Positions 14,819-24,950 of a stretch of DNA of 37,019 nucleotides are shown here, piece by piece. Source of the DNA: Mariprofundaceae bacterium (lineage in GTDB: Bacteria > Pseudomonadota > Zetaproteobacteria > Mariprofundales > Mariprofundaceae). The stretch's first letter is position 1. Each line of letters starts with the position of its first letter. The notes under the pieces are model-generated. The model had not been told where the DNA came from. It saw only the letters and a program-made list of their open reading frames with translations, and ran no database searches. A program made the position numbers and the translations under genes. The stretch is from NCBI GenBank assembly GCA_015488115.1, contig WFOK01000030.1, positions 1 through 37,019 of the forward strand, read 5' to 3'.

Positions 14819-16723
14819 CTAGCTGGCGGGCACGATTTCGCCGTTGGCGATCCTGTACATGATCATGCGTTTCTGACCGGCGCCAAGGGCATCAAACGTC
14901 ACCTCGCCGGTCACGGCAGGGAAGCCCGTTTGATCATGCAGCGCCCTGATCGCCTGGCGCCCCGACAGTCCGAGGCGGCCTGCAACGACAATGGCGAGCT
15001 GGGCCGTATCATAGGCCAGAAGCGACAGCTTGCCGGGCTGCCCCTTTCCCCATGCCTGCCGATACAGGAAGCGGATCTCGCGAAGCCGGGACTCGATCGA
15101 GGCATCCTCGGCCGGCCGCGCAAAGCGCGCGCGGTTCAGATAGCGACCGCGATCATCAAGAAGATGGCCATCATCCCAAAGACTGCTGCCGAACAGCATG
15201 ATGCCGGTCAGGTCGGAATAAGCCAACTGGCCGGCGATCAGGGCCACCCTGCGTCCGGGCATGGCCAAATACAGGGCATCCAGCATCGTGGGCACGCGCG
15301 GTTCGAGGGCCGCCTCGGGCAGGAAGACATCCAGTTCCTCATCCAGCTCCGCAAGCCTCTGCTCATCATCGGTCCGCATCTTCAGTTCGCTCAGCCGGTC
15401 GCGGACATCAATCTCATCGACGGGCAACACGAGCGTGTCCAGAACTTCACCGCCCATGGCCTCAAGCGTTTGCGCAAAACGATCGCCTTCCTGCCTGCTG
15501 CCCGGTCTGTCCAGCTCGATGACCGCAAACCGATGCACCCCATGCTCCAAGGCATGGGCTGCAATGAATTGGGCCTGCGCCAGAGGCGAAAGCGTATGCA
15601 CAAACAGGGCCGGTGAACTTCCCGCGAGATCGACGGCATTGGTCAGCGCAATCACGGGCACATCGCCATGCAGGTGACCGGCAAGCGCCTGCGTGCTCGA
15701 CTTCAGCAACGGACCAACGATGATATCCACGTTTTCCCCATGCAGCCGCTCATAGGCGGCCACGCAACGGGCTGGATCGCCGGCCGTATCCTCGATGCGC
15801 AGCACGGCCTGTTCCCGACCACCGGCCAGGGCCATGCGCATGCCGCGCAAGGCAGCCCATCCATACCGGGCATATGCCCCCGTCAGGGGAAGCAGAACGC
15901 CGATCCTTGCCGGCCTCGAAACGCCGGAAGCCCAACGATGGACCTGGCGACGCCATGCCCGTGGGGCAGGCAGGCCTGCCAACCAATCATCAATGCGGCG
16001 CACCATGTCCATTCTTCCCTGCATGAGAAAGCGACGCGCCAACTGGACATCAAGCCCGGCCAGAAGGGCGGCATCCAGGTCGCCTCGCTCATGCAACTGC
16101 GCGAGGTCCTCGGCGCTGATCCGCCGACTGGCCAGCCGCAACCACTCCTCGCGCCTCGTGACGTCAAGGCTGGCCGCGGTCAACAGCCAGGCCACGGCCT
16201 CCTGAGCATCGACCTGCTCGCTACTTGAGGCGCCCAGGCCCAGGGCTCTTTCCGCCAGCTCGGCGGTCAGGGCCGGATGGCGCAGAACGCCCTCAAGCTC
16301 ATGCAGGGCCCGCTCGTGGTTATCTTGTTCGGCCCACCACCGGGCAAGCCAAAACCGGGCATACGGGGCCAGGGCATGCCCGGGCAATTCGGCCAGGACG
16401 ATCTGGGCCTCGCGATAGGCGCCCGGCACATGCTGCTCCAGCATGACCTGAACCCTGCGATATCGCGCCTCATCGCGCAGAACAGGGTCATCTCCCAGAA
16501 TGTAGGCATCGAAAGCAGGCAGCAGATCGGCCACATCTTCCGCAACCCTTGCCTGCTCAACCAAAGCCATCAGGGCGCGCGACTTGCGGGGAGGCGGTGC
16601 CAGTGTCACCGACGGCGATGGCTGCTTGGGCGTGATCACCAGGGCCGGCTTTTTCGGCCCGCAGGAGGCGGCCATGAGCGCTAGCCCCAGCCCCATGCCC
16701 AGCATGAGCAATCGCTTCAGCAT
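14819..16723 (-). CDS. lpoA: Penicillin-binding protein activator lipoprotein LpoA (LppC/YraM)
   Basis: This 634-residue outer-membrane lipoprotein activates PBP1A from the periplasmic side. The signal peptide ends in the lipobox MAASC with C21. A TPR-like helical domain (about 45-250) is followed by a periplasmic-binding-protein fold (about 260-625), starting ARIGVLLPLTGAYARYGWAALRGM and containing NVDIIVGPLLKSS. The start at 16723 follows GGGAGG on the minus strand. A longer open frame exists upstream but lies antisense to rsmI. The position next to divergent rsmI and yraN matches the E. coli yraM locus. The stop TAG comes from the right CTAG copy of the adjacent element. Confidence 0.93.
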   Translation of the reverse strand: MLKRLLMLGMGLGLALMAASCGPKKPALVITPKQPSPSVTLAPPPRKSRALMALVEQARVAEDVADLLPAFDAYILGDDPVLRDEARYRRVQVMLEQHVPGAYREAQIVLAELPGHALAPYARFWLARWWAEQDNHERALHELEGVLRHPALTAELAERALGLGASSSEQVDAQEAVAWLLTAASLDVTRREEWLRLASRRISAEDLAQLHERGDLDAALLAGLDVQLARRFLMQGRMDMVRRIDDWLAGLPAPRAWRRQVHRWASGVSRPARIGVLLPLTGAYARYGWAALRGMRMALAGGREQAVLRIEDTAGDPARCVAAYERLHGENVDIIVGPLLKSSTQALAGHLHGDVPVIALTNAVDLAGSSPALFVHTLSPLAQAQFIAAHALEHGVHRFAVIELDRPGSRQEGDRFAQTLEAMGGEVLDTLVLPVDEIDVRDRLSELKMRTDDEQRLAELDEELDVFLPEAALEPRVPTMLDALYLAMPGRRVALIAGQLAYSDLTGIMLFGSSLWDDGHLLDDRGRYLNRARFARPAEDASIESRLREIRFLYRQAWGKGQPGKLSLLAYDTAQLAIVVAGRLGLSGRQAIRALHDQTGFPAVTGEVTFDALGAGQKRMIMYRIANGEIVPAS

Positions 16724-16762
16724 TTGATGCCACCTCCCATCAGCGGTATGGTCTTCCTGCCT

Positions 16763-17617
16763 ATGAATTCGGATTCTAGTCAGCCAACAGCCGGTGGCCA
16801 ACTGTTCATCGTGGCCACCCCGATTGGAAACCTTGCGGACATCACGTTCCGTGCGGTCGAGATCCTGAAGCGGGTCCATCTCATTGCCGCCGAGGACACC
16901 CGGACCACGGGAAGGCTGCTTCGGCGCTATGGAATCAAGACCCCAATGGTCGCCTTGCATGAACACAACGAGGCCTCCATGAGCCAGCGCATTCTGCGCG
17001 TGCTTCAGGACGGCGAGGACGTGGCTCTGGTCTCCGACGCCGGCACACCGCTGATGAGCGATCCCGGTTATCATCTCGTGGCCGCAGCCAGGCGAGCCGA
17101 CCTGCGCATCGTGCCCGTGCCGGGGCCATCGAGCATCACGGCCGCGCTGTGCGCCAGCGGCCTTCCTCCGCAGCCCTTCCGCTTCCACGGCTTCCTGCCC
17201 CGCTCCGGGCGCAACCGGCGGCTGATCCTGCAAGAGATGGCCGGAGATACGGCAACACAGATCTTTTTCGAGTCGCCACACCGGTTGCTGAACACATTGC
17301 GTGACCTCTCCGGGATCTGCGGCCCGGAACGCCTGGCCTGCGTGGCGCGTGAGCTGACCAAGCTGCACGAGGAAATCGTGACCCTACCCATTGGCAGGCT
17401 GATCCGGCATTTCGAAGAACGGACCGTTCGCGGCGAATGCGTCGTCCTGCTGGCTCCGGCGGGGAAAACCGAAGAGGTTGACGACGAAGCCATCGTGGAG
17501 CACTTGAACGATGAATCCCTGCGTCGGCTGCCCGCTTCCGTCAGGGCCAGGGAAGTAGCCGCCCGTCTGGGCATCTCGAAAAGGCGCGTCTATGCGCTGA
17601 TGCACGACCGAGAATGA
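16763..17617 (+). CDS. rsmI: 16S rRNA (cytidine-1402-2'-O)-methyltransferase
   Basis: RsmI is a tetrapyrrole-methylase-fold enzyme that 2'-O-methylates C1402 in the ribosomal decoding centre. Family motifs are all present: LFIVATPIGNLADIT at the N-terminus, IAAEDTRTTGRLL, ALVSDAGTPLMSDPGY and VPVPGPSSITAALCASGLP. The C-terminal helical domain ends SKRRVYALMHDRE. It is 284 residues from the ATG at 16763. ATGs at 16724 and 16748 are also in frame, and none has a good ribosome binding site. The stop overlaps the yraN start as ATGA. It is divergent from lpoA, as in many gammaproteobacteria. Confidence 0.94.
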   Translation: MNSDSSQPTAGGQLFIVATPIGNLADITFRAVEILKRVHLIAAEDTRTTGRLLRRYGIKTPMVALHEHNEASMSQRILRVLQDGEDVALVSDAGTPLMSDPGYHLVAAARRADLRIVPVPGPSSITAALCASGLPPQPFRFHGFLPRSGRNRRLILQEMAGDTATQIFFESPHRLLNTLRDLSGICGPERLACVARELTKLHEEIVTLPIGRLIRHFEERTVRGECVVLLAPAGKTEEVDDEAIVEHLNDESLRRLPASVRAREVAARLGISKRRVYALMHDRE

Positions 17618-17976
17618 GCACAAGCATCGGTCGCCGGGGAGAGGACATGGCAGCGCGTCATCTTCGGCGTCGGGGATACCGCATCCTGGATCGCAACGTG
17701 CGGGGCGGTCGTGGAGAGCTCGACCTGGTCGCACTCAAGGGCGAGTTGCTGGTATTCGTCGAGGTCAAGACGCACCGCAACCGGGAGTCCGCCCTGCTGG
17801 CCATGGACGAGGACAAATGCTCGCGCATCGTCTCCGCGGCACGGGCATGGTTGAGCAGGCATCCGCAATATACGGCATTGCAATGCCGTTTTGATTTGAT
17901 CATGCTCACGCCAATGGAAGGATGGCGCACATGGTTCGGCCCGCGCGTCGAACATATCAAGGACATCATCAGGTAA
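17614..17976 (+). CDS. yraN: YraN/UPF0102 family nuclease-like protein
   Basis: This small (120-residue) protein of the UPF0102 family has a Holliday-junction-resolvase-like endonuclease fold. It has the GRRGEDMAARHLRRRGYRIL start and the metal-site pattern E10, GELDLV (D37) and FVEVK (E50, K52). No firm function is known for the family. It overlaps rsmI by 4 bases and is followed 3 bases later by the sugar isomerase gene, the same order as yraL-yraN-yraO in E. coli. Confidence 0.92.
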   Translation: MSTSIGRRGEDMAARHLRRRGYRILDRNVRGGRGELDLVALKGELLVFVEVKTHRNRESALLAMDEDKCSRIVSAARAWLSRHPQYTALQCRFDLIMLTPMEGWRTWFGPRVEHIKDIIR

Positions 17977-17979
17977 ACC

Positions 17980-18561
17980 ATGGAGCAACTGATCACCCAG
18001 GCCCTGGAAGACGGCATCGCACTGCGTCAGGCATGCTTGAACCTACTGCCCGGTCCACTGATGCGCGCCTCGGAAATGCTGGTTTCATGTCTTCGAAACG
18101 GAGGCAAGATTCTTGCCTGTGGCAACGGCGGCTCGGCCGCGGATGCTCAGCATTTTGCTGGAGAGCTGGTTAACCGCTTTGAAATGAACCGGCGCGGGTT
18201 GCCGGCCATCGCGCTGACGCATGATGCCTCCGTGATCACGAGCATCGCCAATGATTTTTCGTTTGACGAGGTCTACGCTCGACAAATCGAGGCTCTTGGC
18301 TGCAATGGTGACGTACTGCTGGCCATCTCCACGAGTGGCGATTCGAAGAACGTGCTGAAGGCTGCGCGGCAGGCCGCCCGCCAGGGCATGGGCGTCATTG
18401 CGCTCACCGGCCGGGATGGCGGCAAGCTGGGACGCTTGCCCGGCATTATTCACCTGAACATCCCGCATGCATCGACACCCCGCGTCCAGGAGATGCATAT
18501 CACCTGCCTGCACGTGCTCTGCACGCTGCTGGATGAAAGCATGTTTGGAGACAAGACATGA
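17980..18561 (+). CDS. gmhA: SIS-domain phosphoheptose isomerase (GmhA; DiaA position)
   Basis: This is a single SIS-domain protein of 193 residues with CGNGGSAADAQHFAGELVNRF (47-67) and ISTSGDSKNV (116-125). The gene occupies the place of E. coli diaA, a DnaA regulator, but the metal ligands of GmhA (H61, E65, Q172, H180 in E. coli GmhA) have counterparts at H58, E62, Q170 and H178. From memory, E. coli DiaA has lost the glutamate and the last histidine. It is therefore more likely an active sedoheptulose 7-phosphate isomerase, the first step of ADP-heptose synthesis. The presence of hldC in the same operon agrees. A dual role cannot be excluded. The stop overlaps the next start as ATGA. Confidence 0.85.
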   Translation: MEQLITQALEDGIALRQACLNLLPGPLMRASEMLVSCLRNGGKILACGNGGSAADAQHFAGELVNRFEMNRRGLPAIALTHDASVITSIANDFSFDEVYARQIEALGCNGDVLLAISTSGDSKNVLKAARQAARQGMGVIALTGRDGGKLGRLPGIIHLNIPHASTPRVQEMHITCLHVLCTLLDESMFGDKT

Positions 18562-19514
18562 GAACGCAGCGCCCCCTTTCATTCAAGTCGCTGAAAACAG
18601 CGCCATTGAGGGACAAGAAGGTCAACCACCGCGAACGGGACTTCGGCGCGCCTTATCGGAGCGGAGGCTCCCTCTCAGACTTCCTGTGCAGCCTGCCGAA
18701 CCTTGGCGTCGCGGCCGAACTGTTTACGGTCCGCGACCGCATCGTCGAGGCGCATCGCGCCGGACGGAACATCATTCTTGCCTGTGGCGGACAGCTTTTC
18801 GACGCCGGACTGAGCCCCTTGCTGACCCGGCTGATCGAGCTCAGACTCATCACCGGCGTGGCCATGACCGGCGCTGCGCTGCTGCGCGATGTCGAGATCG
18901 CCCTGACCGGCAACACGTTTACCTCCAGCCTGGGCGCCATTCGCAATGGCACGTTCATCATGCCCGATGAAACGGGACAGTTGATCAACGATGCCATCAA
19001 CCTCGGCGCCAGCGAGGGCTGGGGCATCGGAAGAAGCGTCGGTCAGCGACTGATCGATGCCAAATGGGAACACCTGGAGCACTCGGTCGTTTACACCGCC
19101 GTCAAGCTGGGCACACCGGTCACCGTGCATACGGCCATGGGGGCCGACACGTTCCATTTTCATCCCAGCGCGCACGGAGAGTCCATTGGCTCCGCGGCCA
19201 TGATGGACATTCGCCAACTTGCCGGCCTGATGGCCGGGAGTTCCGATGGCGTCGTGCTGAACATCGCCTCCAATGCCGTCATGCCGCAGGTCCTGCTCAT
19301 GGCGCTCGCCGCGGCGCGGAATCTCGGCCATGCGGTCGGACGGTTGACGACCGTACTCATCGACCGTGACACGCTGCCCCATAATGCCTTGGGCAGCATG
19401 AAACGTCTGGCCCGGCCGGACGGGCGGGACGTGCATCTGCAGGGGCCGGTTGAAATCATGCTGCCTCTTTTGTTTGCTTCAGTGCTGGAAGCGCTGGGCA
19501 ACGAACTGACATAA
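18558..19514 (+). CDS. Deoxyhypusine-synthase-like protein in heptose/LPS operon
   Basis: This 318-residue soluble protein has no classical function I can assign. It has a Rossmann-like look and features recalling deoxyhypusine/homospermidine synthase relatives: MTGAALLRDVEIALTGNT (103-120), a MPDETGQLINDAIN stretch (135-148), VTVHTAMGADTFHFHPSAHG (188-207) and GVVLNIASNAVMPQVLLMAL (231-250). As I recall, bacterial members of this group occur in LPS heptose clusters. The histidine-rich TFHFHP element could bind metal or substrate. The 4-base overlap with gmhA and the downstream dolP-hldC point to a role in envelope or heptose metabolism. Deoxyhypusine formation itself is not expected, because bacteria lack eIF5A. 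Confidence 0.7.
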   Translation: MRTQRPLSFKSLKTAPLRDKKVNHRERDFGAPYRSGGSLSDFLCSLPNLGVAAELFTVRDRIVEAHRAGRNIILACGGQLFDAGLSPLLTRLIELRLITGVAMTGAALLRDVEIALTGNTFTSSLGAIRNGTFIMPDETGQLINDAINLGASEGWGIGRSVGQRLIDAKWEHLEHSVVYTAVKLGTPVTVHTAMGADTFHFHPSAHGESIGSAAMMDIRQLAGLMAGSSDGVVLNIASNAVMPQVLLMALAAARNLGHAVGRLTTVLIDRDTLPHNALGSMKRLARPDGRDVHLQGPVEIMLPLLFASVLEALGNELT

Positions 19515-19534: not shown

Positions 19535-19542
19535 AAATGCCG

Positions 19543-20115
19543 ATGCGTTGGATCCTGCCAACCCTGCTCATCCTCGGCGCCATTCAAATGCAAGGTTGCG
19601 TGACGACGGCCGTCGTCGGCGCAACGGCCGCCAGCGCCGCCTTCGATGAGCGCACCGTGGGCCGCCATGCGGACGATGTGGCCATCGCCACGAAGGTGGA
19701 CGCCAAGCTCATCGCCGAAAAGGACATGCCTGCCCGCTGGGTCAGCGTGGAGGTTGTCGATGGCGTCGTTTACCTGACCGGCTTTCTGCCCAGCCGGGAG
19801 CATATCCGGCGCGCCGTCTACATCGCGAGCCGGGTCAAGGGCGTTCGTCAAGTCAATGCGGACAACCTGAAGGTTGGCGAGCCAAGCGCACTGGCCACGG
19901 TCAGCGACTCATGGATCACGACGAAGATCAAGAGCAAGCTGCTGGCCGATCCGGTGGTCTCGGGCTTCACCATCCATGTTGAAACGGTCAATGGCAAGGT
20001 TTACCTGACCGGCATCGTGGGCAACCGTTCCCACCGTCAGCGGGCCATCGACATTGCCCGCGCCACGGCCGGCGTGACGGCGGTCATTGACCTGATGCAA
20101 GACCGGCAGCATTGA
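19543..20115 (+). CDS. dolP: Dual-BON-domain outer-membrane lipoprotein (DolP/YraP)
   Basis: DolP is an outer-membrane lipoprotein that supports envelope integrity and BAM function. The 190-residue product has a short signal peptide ending in MQGC (lipidated C19). Two BON domains follow (about 48-112 and 118-185), each with the typical pattern DxxIxxKVxxxL...VxVEVVDGVVYLTGFLPSR, and the second containing VNGKVYLTGIVGNR. The position after the SIS-domain gene matches E. coli yraO-yraP, apart from the inserted gene between them. Its stop TGA overlaps the TTG start of hldC. Confidence 0.92.
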   Translation: MRWILPTLLILGAIQMQGCVTTAVVGATAASAAFDERTVGRHADDVAIATKVDAKLIAEKDMPARWVSVEVVDGVVYLTGFLPSREHIRRAVYIASRVKGVRQVNADNLKVGEPSALATVSDSWITTKIKSKLLADPVVSGFTIHVETVNGKVYLTGIVGNRSHRQRAIDIARATAGVTAVIDLMQDRQH

Positions 20116-20594
20116 ACGAAACGCGCATCCTGACGAGAGAGAGGGCTGCCGACCGGGTAAAGAGCTGGCGTGAACAGGGACTGAGCATCGTGTTCACGAA
20201 CGGCTGCTTTGATTTGTTGCATCCGGGACATGTCGACTACCTCGAACGGGCCGGCAGACTGGGCGATCGCCTCGTCATCGGCATCAACGACGATGCATCC
20301 GTACGCCGCCTGAAGGGGCCCGAAAGACCCATCAACCCCCTGCGAGACCGGGCACGCATGCTGGCAGCCCTGCGTTGCGTGGATCTTGTCGTGCCATTCG
20401 CGGAAGACACGCCCCTGGAACTGATACGCTCCCTGATGCCCGATGTCCTCGTCAAGGGAGGCGATTATCGTCCGGAGGAAATCGTCGGCAGCGAACTTGT
20501 CCGCAGACATGGCGGGCGAACCGTTGTCATGCCATTTCTGCGCGGTTATTCGTCCACGTCCCTGATCGAACGCATCCGAAACATGCCCGCATGA
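20112..20594 (+). CDS. hldC: Stand-alone D-glycero-beta-D-manno-heptose 1-phosphate adenylyltransferase
   Basis: This 160-residue nucleotidyltransferase corresponds to the C-terminal half of HldE (RfaE domain II). It makes ADP-heptose from heptose 1-phosphate and ATP for LPS inner core synthesis. FTNGCFDLLHPGHVDYL contains the HxGH motif (H37, H40), and KGGDYRPEEIVG and RGYSSTSLIERI are also family segments. The start is a TTG at 20112 that overlaps the dolP stop as TTGA. The next in-frame ATG or GTG candidates would remove the region before the HxGH motif. A separate HldA kinase must be encoded elsewhere. The stop overlaps pdxB as ATGA. Confidence 0.9.
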   Translation: MNETRILTRERAADRVKSWREQGLSIVFTNGCFDLLHPGHVDYLERAGRLGDRLVIGINDDASVRRLKGPERPINPLRDRARMLAALRCVDLVVPFAEDTPLELIRSLMPDVLVKGGDYRPEEIVGSELVRRHGGRTVVMPFLRGYSSTSLIERIRNMPA

Positions 20595-22394: not shown

Positions 22395-24950
22395 TTACGG
22401 CTCCATCCTCCAGGCGGGTCTTGGCCAGACGCCACCGAGCAACAGCGTCTGTGCTCCAGAGGTCAGCTTCCCCTGAATCGAACCATCCACGGCAAGAACC
22501 ACGTCGCCATGGAAGCGATGCGCACCCTGCCTGACCACGACCTGTGAGAGCCTGCAGCCCTGTTCGTCCATATGCAGGCGCGCGGACACATGCCCCAGTG
22601 AGAAAGGCGGACGCTGGTCATCCTCCGTCGGCTTCCAGGCCGCATCCCCCAGCGTAAGATCCCCGTCCAGCTGCACATCGCTCCATCGCGTCGCGGGCAG
22701 GGAAAGCGTTCCCTTCATCCTCAGACCCAGCCTACCCCGCAATTGCGGCTGTCCGATCCAGGCTGTCAGCTCGGCGGCCTCGGCAAGCGAGAGACCATCC
22801 AGTTGCATATCGCCTGACAGCCGCAGTCCCCATTCCCCGAACTGGATACGCATCTGCCGACCATGTACGTCTGCCTTGTGCCAGGCCGCCTGCCATGTCC
22901 CCAGGCGCAATCCTTCCTCGTCCCAGGTGAAGGGGGCCTGAAGATTTCGCCACTCCCAAGCCCCATGGTGCAGCGCTAGACCGGACAGCCGCCCCTCCAT
23001 GCGGCGCCCCTTCATCCATGCCGCCAGGGATCCGATCGTCAGCGGATCAATCTGACCGTTCAGCAGAATCAGGCGCCCCCGCCTTCCCCTAGCATCATAG
23101 CGGACGCCCAGATTGGCATAGCCACTTTCCCATTTGAGGAAAAGGTGTTGGCTCTGAATGACTCCCCGCTTCGCCGAGACGTGGCCATCGGCCGTGAGCC
23201 CATTGCAGCCAAAGCCATGCAGATCGACCCCTCCATCGGCCGCCGTCAGCCATGTTTCCCAGGTCGCATTCGGATCCACCTCCAAGGCGAAGGATCCCTC
23301 CAGCCTCCCGTGCCAGCCACATCCCCCGGGGCTGTACAGACGCACACCAATGTCGTCGGTCAGCTGACCGAAGTCGAAGGATCCGCCCTCGACCCTGATA
23401 CCTTGCCGGGTGCCATCGCGCCACCAGTCCAGTCGCTCGACACCCGAACCGCCGAGATGGCAGCCCCGCATTTCCCATGCATCCCGCTGGTCATCATGAT
23501 GAATGCTCCATGTACACCGGGCCGGCATGCGCATCGGCTTGCTCCAGCTCCCATACGCGATCCTGGCTTCCGTGGCATCCATGCGGAGCGAGATCCGATA
23601 TCCCTCCCGCTGCTCAAGGTGCATCGAACCAGTCAACCGCCCCTGGCCCCGCAGCTCCCCATCCTCGCCAAGCGAGGCCAGCACAAGATTGCCCAGAGGC
23701 ACCCAGATGCGGGACAGCCCCTCCTCACTGCCCAAGTCGGCAACGAGTCCAGCTCGTTTCTCATAATCGGCGGATGCATCCAGACGGTCATCGAATCCTG
23801 GCGCGCGCAGTCTGGTGGCGCGTAGATGCCACTGCATGCCTTCACCCCGCACATCGCCGATCTGACCCACAATTTCCGGCCAGACAATGACACGCGATCC
23901 ATAATGAAACTGGGGCCCACGCGCCTTGAACGATCCCCGGCCATGCCAGTGCCTGCCTTGCCAATGGACCAGGGCATGCACCAGTACCTCTCCATCGATG
24001 CGGTCAGGTTTGCGCGCTTGATCAGCCCATGCCTCACGCAGCCAGTCCAGCGGCAAATGCTTCCCCTGCATGCTCGTGCTGCACGCTCCCTGGCCACACT
24101 GCCCCTGCAAGCCGATCACGCCCCGCTTCCCGATATGCACAAAGGCGTCACGCCAGAGCAGAACATTTGCGCGCGGATGTTCGAGCTTGCCCCGAAACCG
24201 CAGCAGCATCTGGCCCGACCGCTGCAGCCCACCCTCGCCGAAAAGCGTCCAGTTCTCCCGTGAACTCATGTTGAACGTGGCCGAGCCGCTGAATTGCTCG
24301 CCTCCCAGCAAACGCGCCGCAAGGGGAGACGGCAACAGATGTCGCCATCGCGAGACCGGCACCTGCTCGAACTTGATCTTGCCGAAGCTGTTGACCACCC
24401 TGCCCTGACGGAAGGAAACGCGACCATTGGAACGCAGCAGATGCCCCTCGATCAGGGTCTGCAACTCCCACAGCGTATCCCGATTGATCCCGATGTCGCG
24501 TACATCGAAGAAGACGTCCTGCAGCAGCAATTCCGTTCCGAGGAAGAAACGGCCCTGGGAGACGAGAATGCGGGAAAGCGGAAGCCTTGCAATCTGGCTG
24601 AACGATGCCGGGAAGGAGAGTCGGTCGTCCATGTGCACGCTGGCCTGCTGGAAATGAAGCGTGTCCAGCTCGACCTTGCCGAACAACAGCGGCACGATGC
24701 TGGCGTGCACGAGCAGGGAGTGGGCATCGACGCTGAGACCCGGCCACTGAAGACGCACCTCGTCCATACGGATGCCCGGCTTCGGAAACCATACCCATGT
24801 CGCCTGCCGTGAACTGAGCTGAACCCCGGTGCGATCACTCACCTGGGCCGCAAGCACCTCGACATTCAGGCTCGACAGGCGATACCCGAGCAGCGCCAAG
24901 GTCAAGACAAGGACCAGCAGCATCAGAAGGGTGCGCTGCATGCCGATCAT
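22395..24950 (-). CDS. Large AsmA/TamB-type periplasmic protein
   Basis: This 851-residue protein has one N-terminal membrane anchor (about 5-24) and a long periplasmic beta-rich body. It looks like the AsmA/YhdP/TamB group, whose repeats form a groove carrying phospholipid between membranes. The N-terminal region (VSDRTGVQLSSRQATW...VRLQWPGLSVDAHSLLVHA) matches the AsmA opening pattern. The C-terminal part resembles the AsmA-like C-terminal domain, with pieces such as RLSGDMQLDGLSLAEAAEL. The exact family member is not clear. It lies 39 bp downstream of gatB on the same strand and may be the last gene of that operon. An ATG at 24941 is an alternative start. Confidence 0.75.
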   Translation of the reverse strand: MIGMQRTLLMLLVLVLTLALLGYRLSSLNVEVLAAQVSDRTGVQLSSRQATWVWFPKPGIRMDEVRLQWPGLSVDAHSLLVHASIVPLLFGKVELDTLHFQQASVHMDDRLSFPASFSQIARLPLSRILVSQGRFFLGTELLLQDVFFDVRDIGINRDTLWELQTLIEGHLLRSNGRVSFRQGRVVNSFGKIKFEQVPVSRWRHLLPSPLAARLLGGEQFSGSATFNMSSRENWTLFGEGGLQRSGQMLLRFRGKLEHPRANVLLWRDAFVHIGKRGVIGLQGQCGQGACSTSMQGKHLPLDWLREAWADQARKPDRIDGEVLVHALVHWQGRHWHGRGSFKARGPQFHYGSRVIVWPEIVGQIGDVRGEGMQWHLRATRLRAPGFDDRLDASADYEKRAGLVADLGSEEGLSRIWVPLGNLVLASLGEDGELRGQGRLTGSMHLEQREGYRISLRMDATEARIAYGSWSKPMRMPARCTWSIHHDDQRDAWEMRGCHLGGSGVERLDWWRDGTRQGIRVEGGSFDFGQLTDDIGVRLYSPGGCGWHGRLEGSFALEVDPNATWETWLTAADGGVDLHGFGCNGLTADGHVSAKRGVIQSQHLFLKWESGYANLGVRYDARGRRGRLILLNGQIDPLTIGSLAAWMKGRRMEGRLSGLALHHGAWEWRNLQAPFTWDEEGLRLGTWQAAWHKADVHGRQMRIQFGEWGLRLSGDMQLDGLSLAEAAELTAWIGQPQLRGRLGLRMKGTLSLPATRWSDVQLDGDLTLGDAAWKPTEDDQRPPFSLGHVSARLHMDEQGCRLSQVVVRQGAHRFHGDVVLAVDGSIQGKLTSGAQTLLLGGVWPRPAWRMEP

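Follow-up and report, generated by a model that had tools for sequence, protein, structure and literature searches.

A predicted distant relative of deoxyhypusine synthase beside gmhA in a Mariprofundaceae genome

Gene order and selection at the locus

The window, here meaning the whole stretch of 37,019 nucleotides that was analysed, carries a run of genes from rsmI to hldC which all lie on the plus strand, overlapping or separated by short gaps:

16724-17617, plus strand: rsmI, 16S rRNA C1402 methyltransferase (PF00590 TP_methylase, 113.7 bits); opens a conserved gene run whose order is kept in relatives
17614-17976, plus strand: yraN, UPF0102 (PF02021, 83.7 bits)
17980-18561, plus strand: gmhA-like phosphoheptose isomerase with SIS domain (PRK13936, 254.9 bits, cut-off 276; TIGR00441, 205.7 bits, cut-off 209.45)
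18558-19514, plus strand: predicted GSU2086-family gene, deoxyhypusine synthase/ornithine cyclodeaminase-like, 318 amino acids, ATG start (NF052581, 279.7 bits, above the cut-off of 250)
19537-20115, plus strand: dolP-like BON-domain lipoprotein (PF04972, two BON stretches; PRK11023, 116 bits, below the cut-off of 184)
20112-20594, plus strand: hldC, heptose-1-phosphate adenylyltransferase (TIGR02199, 205.0 bits, above the cut-off of 181.5)

The 318-codon gene, its four-base overlap with gmhA (ATGA) and the presence of hldC downstream had been described in a sequence-only reading of this DNA, and the open reading frame coordinates and the TIGR02199 score bear this out; a GGAG precedes the gene. 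The SIS gene, with scores just under both GmhA cut-offs and 187.7 bits against a cut-off of 352 for the DiaA model, is predicted to be GmhA-like, and one full-length gmhA copy was found in the window's own genome. The same reading had called the flanking order that of E. coli. The succession of rsmI, yraN, SIS gene and dolP stands, but the E. coli order is rsmI (minus strand), lpoA, yraN, diaA, dolP, so that lpoA comes between rsmI and yraN and the SIS gene is diaA. At 14819-16768 on the minus strand, divergent from rsmI as lpoA is in E. coli, the window has a gene for an LppC/LpoA-like lipoprotein with a Peripla_BP_6 match.

A close relative of the organism is a Zetaproteobacteria MAG (record RFGS01000043.1), whose corresponding protein is 89% identical. 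Measured against this relative, dN/dS of the 318-codon gene is 0.076, which is as low as in its neighbours (gmhA 0.089, dolP 0.044, hldC 0.068, yraN 0.055 and rsmI 0.114). The gene is thus under purifying selection, as are its neighbours, and is a real gene and no chance reading frame.

Relationship to deoxyhypusine synthase and ornithine cyclodeaminase

The window protein matched NF052581 over profile positions 1-300 of 301 and is by this match assigned to the NCBIfam 'GSU2086 family', which is named but has no assigned function. Its match to the deoxyhypusine synthase (DHS) family PF01916 (DS) is 19.6 bits, below the cut-off of 27, and spans residues 65-122 only. PF01916 was matched by 18/27 family members with a best E-value of 1e-7, some relatives such as L053 (28.1 bits) exceeding the cut-off. 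PF21570, which models the Rossmann domain of ornithine cyclodeaminase (OCD) of the ArgZ type, was matched by nine of the 27, with L042 (31.6 bits) and L044 (29.0 bits) above the cut-off of 27. The window protein gave no TIGR00300 or PF21570 match at E 0.01, and the TIGR00300 cut-off was passed by none of the scanned family members, the match being 23.7 against 410.8 bits over about 70 residues.

Profile-profile comparison was made between an alignment of 27 GSU2086-family members (A1) and one of nine DHS proteins from the same phylum (A2), the latter built from 9 of 13 DHS loci (L099-L111), since the other four had no match to the seed protein. The two profiles matched at 95.6% over 244 columns (E 1.1e-8), and seven unrelated control families drawn from the same loci gave 0.10-1.01%. 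The earlier description of the gene as DHS-like is upheld in this form, and the resemblance appears genuine but distant. At the profile level it extends over residues 67-315 of the window protein, including a TGA segment in the Rossmann-like half; the similarity to DHS and OCD is concentrated in residues 67-122, and it is the profile alignment that supports the C-terminal half. The ArgZ/AgrE and LOR-SDH type OCD (PF21570, TIGR00300) have a D-x-E stretch of the Rossmann-like half in common with the GSU2086 family, whose genes differ in standing outside an amino-acid pathway context.

Sequence matches of the family profiles in the PDB were weak, with chains of 3c2q, 6juy, 6lrh and 6lrf aligning at the same segment. 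These entries are named Sll1336 and Alr4995 (6juy, 6lrh, 6lrf) and 'uncharacterized conserved protein' (3c2q); we take the former three to be ArgZ/AgrE and the latter a related archaeal protein. AlphaFold2, run on a two-sequence alignment of the window protein and its L002 relative, gave a mean pLDDT of 36.9 and a pTM of 0.35, a confidence too low for the model to be of use. On the profile matches, the GSU2086 family very probably belongs to the DHS/OCD fold group, in which it would form a third branch next to DHS and the ArgZ/LOR-SDH type OCD.

Conserved residues and the missing transfer loop

Three parts of the window protein bear on its chemistry:

18756-18923, plus strand: Rossmann-like half, residues 67-122, common to DHS and ornithine cyclodeaminase; TGA (104-106), invariant D111 and near-invariant E113
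19128-19166, plus strand: H191-x3-G195-x-D197 plus TFHFHP, residues 191-203; H191 26/27, G195 and D197 27/27, H202 23/27, H200 11/27
19389-19406, plus strand: expected site of the DHS Glu/Trp/Lys transfer loop, residues 278-283; loop missing

Polar residues invariant in all 27 aligned members are D111, E138, D197 and S238, and those nearly so are E113, S176, H191 and N235 (26/27 each) and H172 (25/27). G195 was likewise kept in 27/27. The histidine-rich TFHFHP element pointed out earlier is present at residues 198-203, and its second histidine, H202, is kept in 23/27, but the first, H200, in only 11/27. His191 of the window protein stands in the column of an Asp, D204, that all A2 sequences share.

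In the nine DHS proteins of A2 the named residues of an S-x-x-T-x-x-E-x-x-x-W-x-K stretch are invariant. Its E301, W305 and K307 (numbering of the first row of A2) were paired by spacing with human Glu323, Trp327 and Lys329 which, together with Asp316, are given as catalytic or spermidine-binding residues of human DHS (PMC9117371). The window protein has neither this loop nor the GGG motif of DHS. The catalytic lysine, proposed earlier as a point of comparison with DHS, has no general counterpart, the aligned K282 occurring in 2/27 members. Lacking the Glu/Trp/Lys loop for substrate binding and transfer, the window protein is judged not to be a DHS, in agreement with the suggestion that its role is other than hypusine formation. 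A PWKT segment is found in the five members that make up alignment A3; neither the window protein nor any other member beyond A3 has it. In the A3 members a lysine may persist by a different route, via PWKT near the missing DHS segment.

Distribution and gene neighbourhoods

A profile search of 299 genomes of the phylum gave matches in 57, of which 49 were over the cut-off; a search of viral contigs gave no relatives of the protein. Neighbourhoods were examined in 28 of 49 other zetaproteobacterial carriers, all from the family or order to which the window's genome belongs. In 27 of these 28 loci gmhA lies directly upstream, and the remaining locus is cut by a contig end; dolP comes next in 25, and hldC is within the stretch in 25. 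The association with heptose genes that the sequence-only reading had put forward for survey was thus recovered, and it recurs outside this class with an HldE-type partner and in Geobacter with hldE and gmhA.

In G001, a deep relative of another class, gmhA is also upstream of the GSU2086-family gene. In G081 the gene is found between the gene of an HldE-like enzyme whose domains are in reversed order and a GmhA-like SIS gene, after which come genes for a radical SAM protein, an RmlA-like nucleotidyltransferase and an epimerase. An HldE-like gene adjoins the family gene in G101, and in G041 both lie at contig ends; the family gene is apart from gmhA and HldE-type genes in G045 and G073, and the contig of G153 is too short for its neighbours to be seen. 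The gmhA or HldE-type neighbours of G001, G081 and G101 are accompanied by no dolP match nearby.

The GSU2086-family gene occurs in 6/48 genomes of the class of G041. A close HldE-like form (57-100% identity) was found in all six carriers, that of G153 being a piece of 123 residues, and in 1/42 non-carriers (G097). Five of the six carriers are of one genus, so that the cases are not independent, and the 57% split was set after the result had been seen. Most other genomes of the class hold only an HldE-like paralogue of 38-44%.

As separate observations, most genomes of this class have, in addition to other HldE-type matches, an HldE-like protein with the domains in reversed order, for example at L044 7188-8741. 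The cluster of G081 (L041 3117-9418) comprises the epimerase, the RmlA-like nucleotidyltransferase, the radical SAM protein (radical SAM/SPASM), the GmhA-like SIS gene, the GSU2086-family gene and the HldE-like enzyme, in which the adenylyltransferase domain comes first and the kinase domain second. Its gene content suggests a second heptose pathway in altered form.

Loss of the gene within the class

The sequence-only reading had taken the gene to be an addition inserted between gmhA and dolP. In 20 genomes of the same family without a match to the GSU2086-family protein, gmhA was matched in 19, one as a fragment, and the loci lacking the gene showed gmhA followed by dolP in five and by hldC in thirteen. 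In L082 and L098, about 70 bases of the gene start and about 48 of the gene end lie side by side between gmhA and dolP, and these ends align with the undisrupted copy in a sister genome at 75-76% and 86-88%. In these bacteria, then, the remaining heptose genes are retained in the absence of the GSU2086-family gene. A gmhA tree was made with 46 rows, namely 28 carrier loci and 18 non-carrier loci with a gmhA match above 180 bits, L002 being excluded as it is apparently the same contig as L071. Six changes of presence and absence were needed on this tree, in which long branches and weak deep forks leave the number of losses uncertain. Presence of the gene looks ancestral within the window's class, and with deletion scars in two relatives and losses in others, recent insertion was rejected for this class. 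In relatives of genus g2 (L080, L081, L084, L086, L087 and L089-L092), gmhA is directly followed by hldC, with neither the GSU2086-family gene nor dolP in between.

The heptose pathway and Geobacter genetics

The window's own genome also has hldA (358.9 bits, cut-off 345), hldD (313.6 bits, cut-off 274.6) and a GmhB-type phosphatase just under its cut-off (PRK08942, 173.3 against 178 bits). Together with gmhA and hldC the standard steps are all present besides the GSU2086-family gene, which shares their neighbourhood and replaces none of them, and so fills no gap. That it might fill a missing heptose step was also rejected across genomes, hldA and hldD matches being found in 44/44 (30 carriers and 14 non-carriers). 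Over the cut-offs were hldA in 40 and hldD in 39 of these, and a GmhB-like match was found in 43/44, over the TIGR00213 cut-off in one. Many of the additional hldD matches that fall below the cut-off will belong to other sugar epimerases. The role that fits best is an additional or modifying one, either towards a different heptose or in control of the GmhA step.

The Geobacter member of the family has the same partners, gmhA and hldE. In a Tn-seq experiment of Geobacter sulfurreducens on electrodes, the scores listed were -3.1 for GSU2085 (hldE), -3.2 for GSU2086 and -3.7 for GSU2087 (gmhA) (PMC5585712). These scores are the best indication that the protein and its neighbours work together. 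They come from a single condition, GSU2086 is assigned to the family by its NCBIfam name, and polarity within the GSU2085-GSU2087 operon may contribute, although according to the authors polar effects are relieved by read-through from the cassette (PMC5585712). In the open-licence literature searched, GSU2086 was found in this paper only, as a table row. Nothing was found there that joined DHS, heptose and lipopolysaccharide, Geobacter sulfurreducens, heptose and gmhA, Mariprofundus, lipopolysaccharide and heptose, or nickel-pincer nucleotide and ornithine cyclodeaminase.

Possible functions

Heptose is a sugar of the bacterial surface, and the heptose branch of lipopolysaccharide synthesis is a textbook pathway. 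A conserved extra protein whose gene overlaps gmhA, and whose Geobacter counterpart scores like gmhA and hldE, suggests an unrecognised step or control. Given the gene neighbourhoods and the Geobacter scores, the GSU2086-family protein probably works in the heptose pathway, where the window protein would act beside GmhA. Most likely it would be an enzyme, whose conserved N-terminal half may bind a hydride-carrying cofactor, by analogy NAD, and in which D111, E113, E138, H172, H191, D197 and H202 may be used in place of the DHS lysine. Since the DHS reaction is described as an NAD-dependent dehydrogenation followed by re-reduction (PMC9117371) and the Rossmann-like half is conserved, a redox-neutral hydride transfer is proposed, by which a heptose or sedoheptulose phosphate would be oxidised and then re-reduced to give an epimerised or otherwise altered heptose. 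This reaction, with its cofactor, substrate and product, is put forward tentatively and is somewhat more likely to be wrong than right. Counting against a heptose-phosphate enzyme, the steps of the standard ADP-heptose pathway are all there even when the window protein is left aside, and the gene is lost in lineages retaining gmhA and hldC and stands apart from gmhA and HldE-type genes in G045 and G073.

The protein could instead be a partner that regulates GmhA or at least has no catalysis of its own. As a pseudo-enzyme, it would either bind the isomerase or respond to NAD or a sugar phosphate, and so set the flux into ADP-heptose. The reading frame that overlaps gmhA, the near-constant gmhA neighbour and the dispensability of the gene in several lineages would be in keeping with such a partner, as would Tn-seq scores that match those of hldE and gmhA (PMC5585712). 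However, the strictly kept polar residues (D111, E138, D197 and S238, with H191, E113, S176 and N235) look like an active site, and the copies of G045 and G073 are not beside gmhA; a purely regulatory role is considered unlikely. That the gene serves a different cell-envelope function along with dolP and yraN, and is a mere passenger beside gmhA, is less probable still. The frequent dolP neighbour in the zetaproteobacterial loci and the joint absence of dolP and the family gene between gmhA and hldC in genus g2 speak for it, but in G001, G081 and G101 it is the gmhA or HldE-type neighbours that are kept, some lineages keep dolP having lost the family gene, and the Geobacter gene is listed between hldE and gmhA (PMC5585712).

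Activity on polyamines, as a genuine deoxyhypusine or homospermidine synthase, is very improbable. Polyamine had been suggested as one substrate, and PF01916 matches in two thirds of the aligned members and the published bacterial homospermidine synthases (reported in PMC10981699) are in its favour, but the loop that binds spermidine and carries the lysine in DHS is missing, which makes such a substrate unlikely; the protein fails on the defining residues of these enzymes, and its linkage is to heptose genes and not to polyamine genes. Modification of EF-P (the eIF5A homologue of bacteria) or a comparable protein by an enzyme kept in a heptose operon for historical reasons is hardly credible, for although the family has DHS ancestry and EF-P is among the functions listed as needed on electrodes (PMC5585712), the transfer lysine is missing and linkage to heptose-type genes is repeated.

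If the preferred role on heptose phosphates holds, a fold group of polyamine and ornithine chemistry would be extended to sugars. A bolder form of it, which we regard as speculative and improbable as a whole, is that the GSU2086 family represents a novel kind of epimerase or oxidoreductase for sugar phosphates on the DHS/OCD fold. With NAD kept bound to the protein, or even with a nickel-pincer nucleotide in its place, such an enzyme might convert a GmhA-linked sedoheptulose or heptose phosphate to a heptose new to these lipopolysaccharides, which in some bacteria would then be activated by the reversed HldE-like enzyme. The cyclodeaminase cousin is nickel-pincer-nucleotide dependent according to its NCBIfam description.

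Elsewhere in the window, at 22395-24950 on the minus strand, lies a large reading frame of 851 codons with a weak AsmA match below the cut-off.
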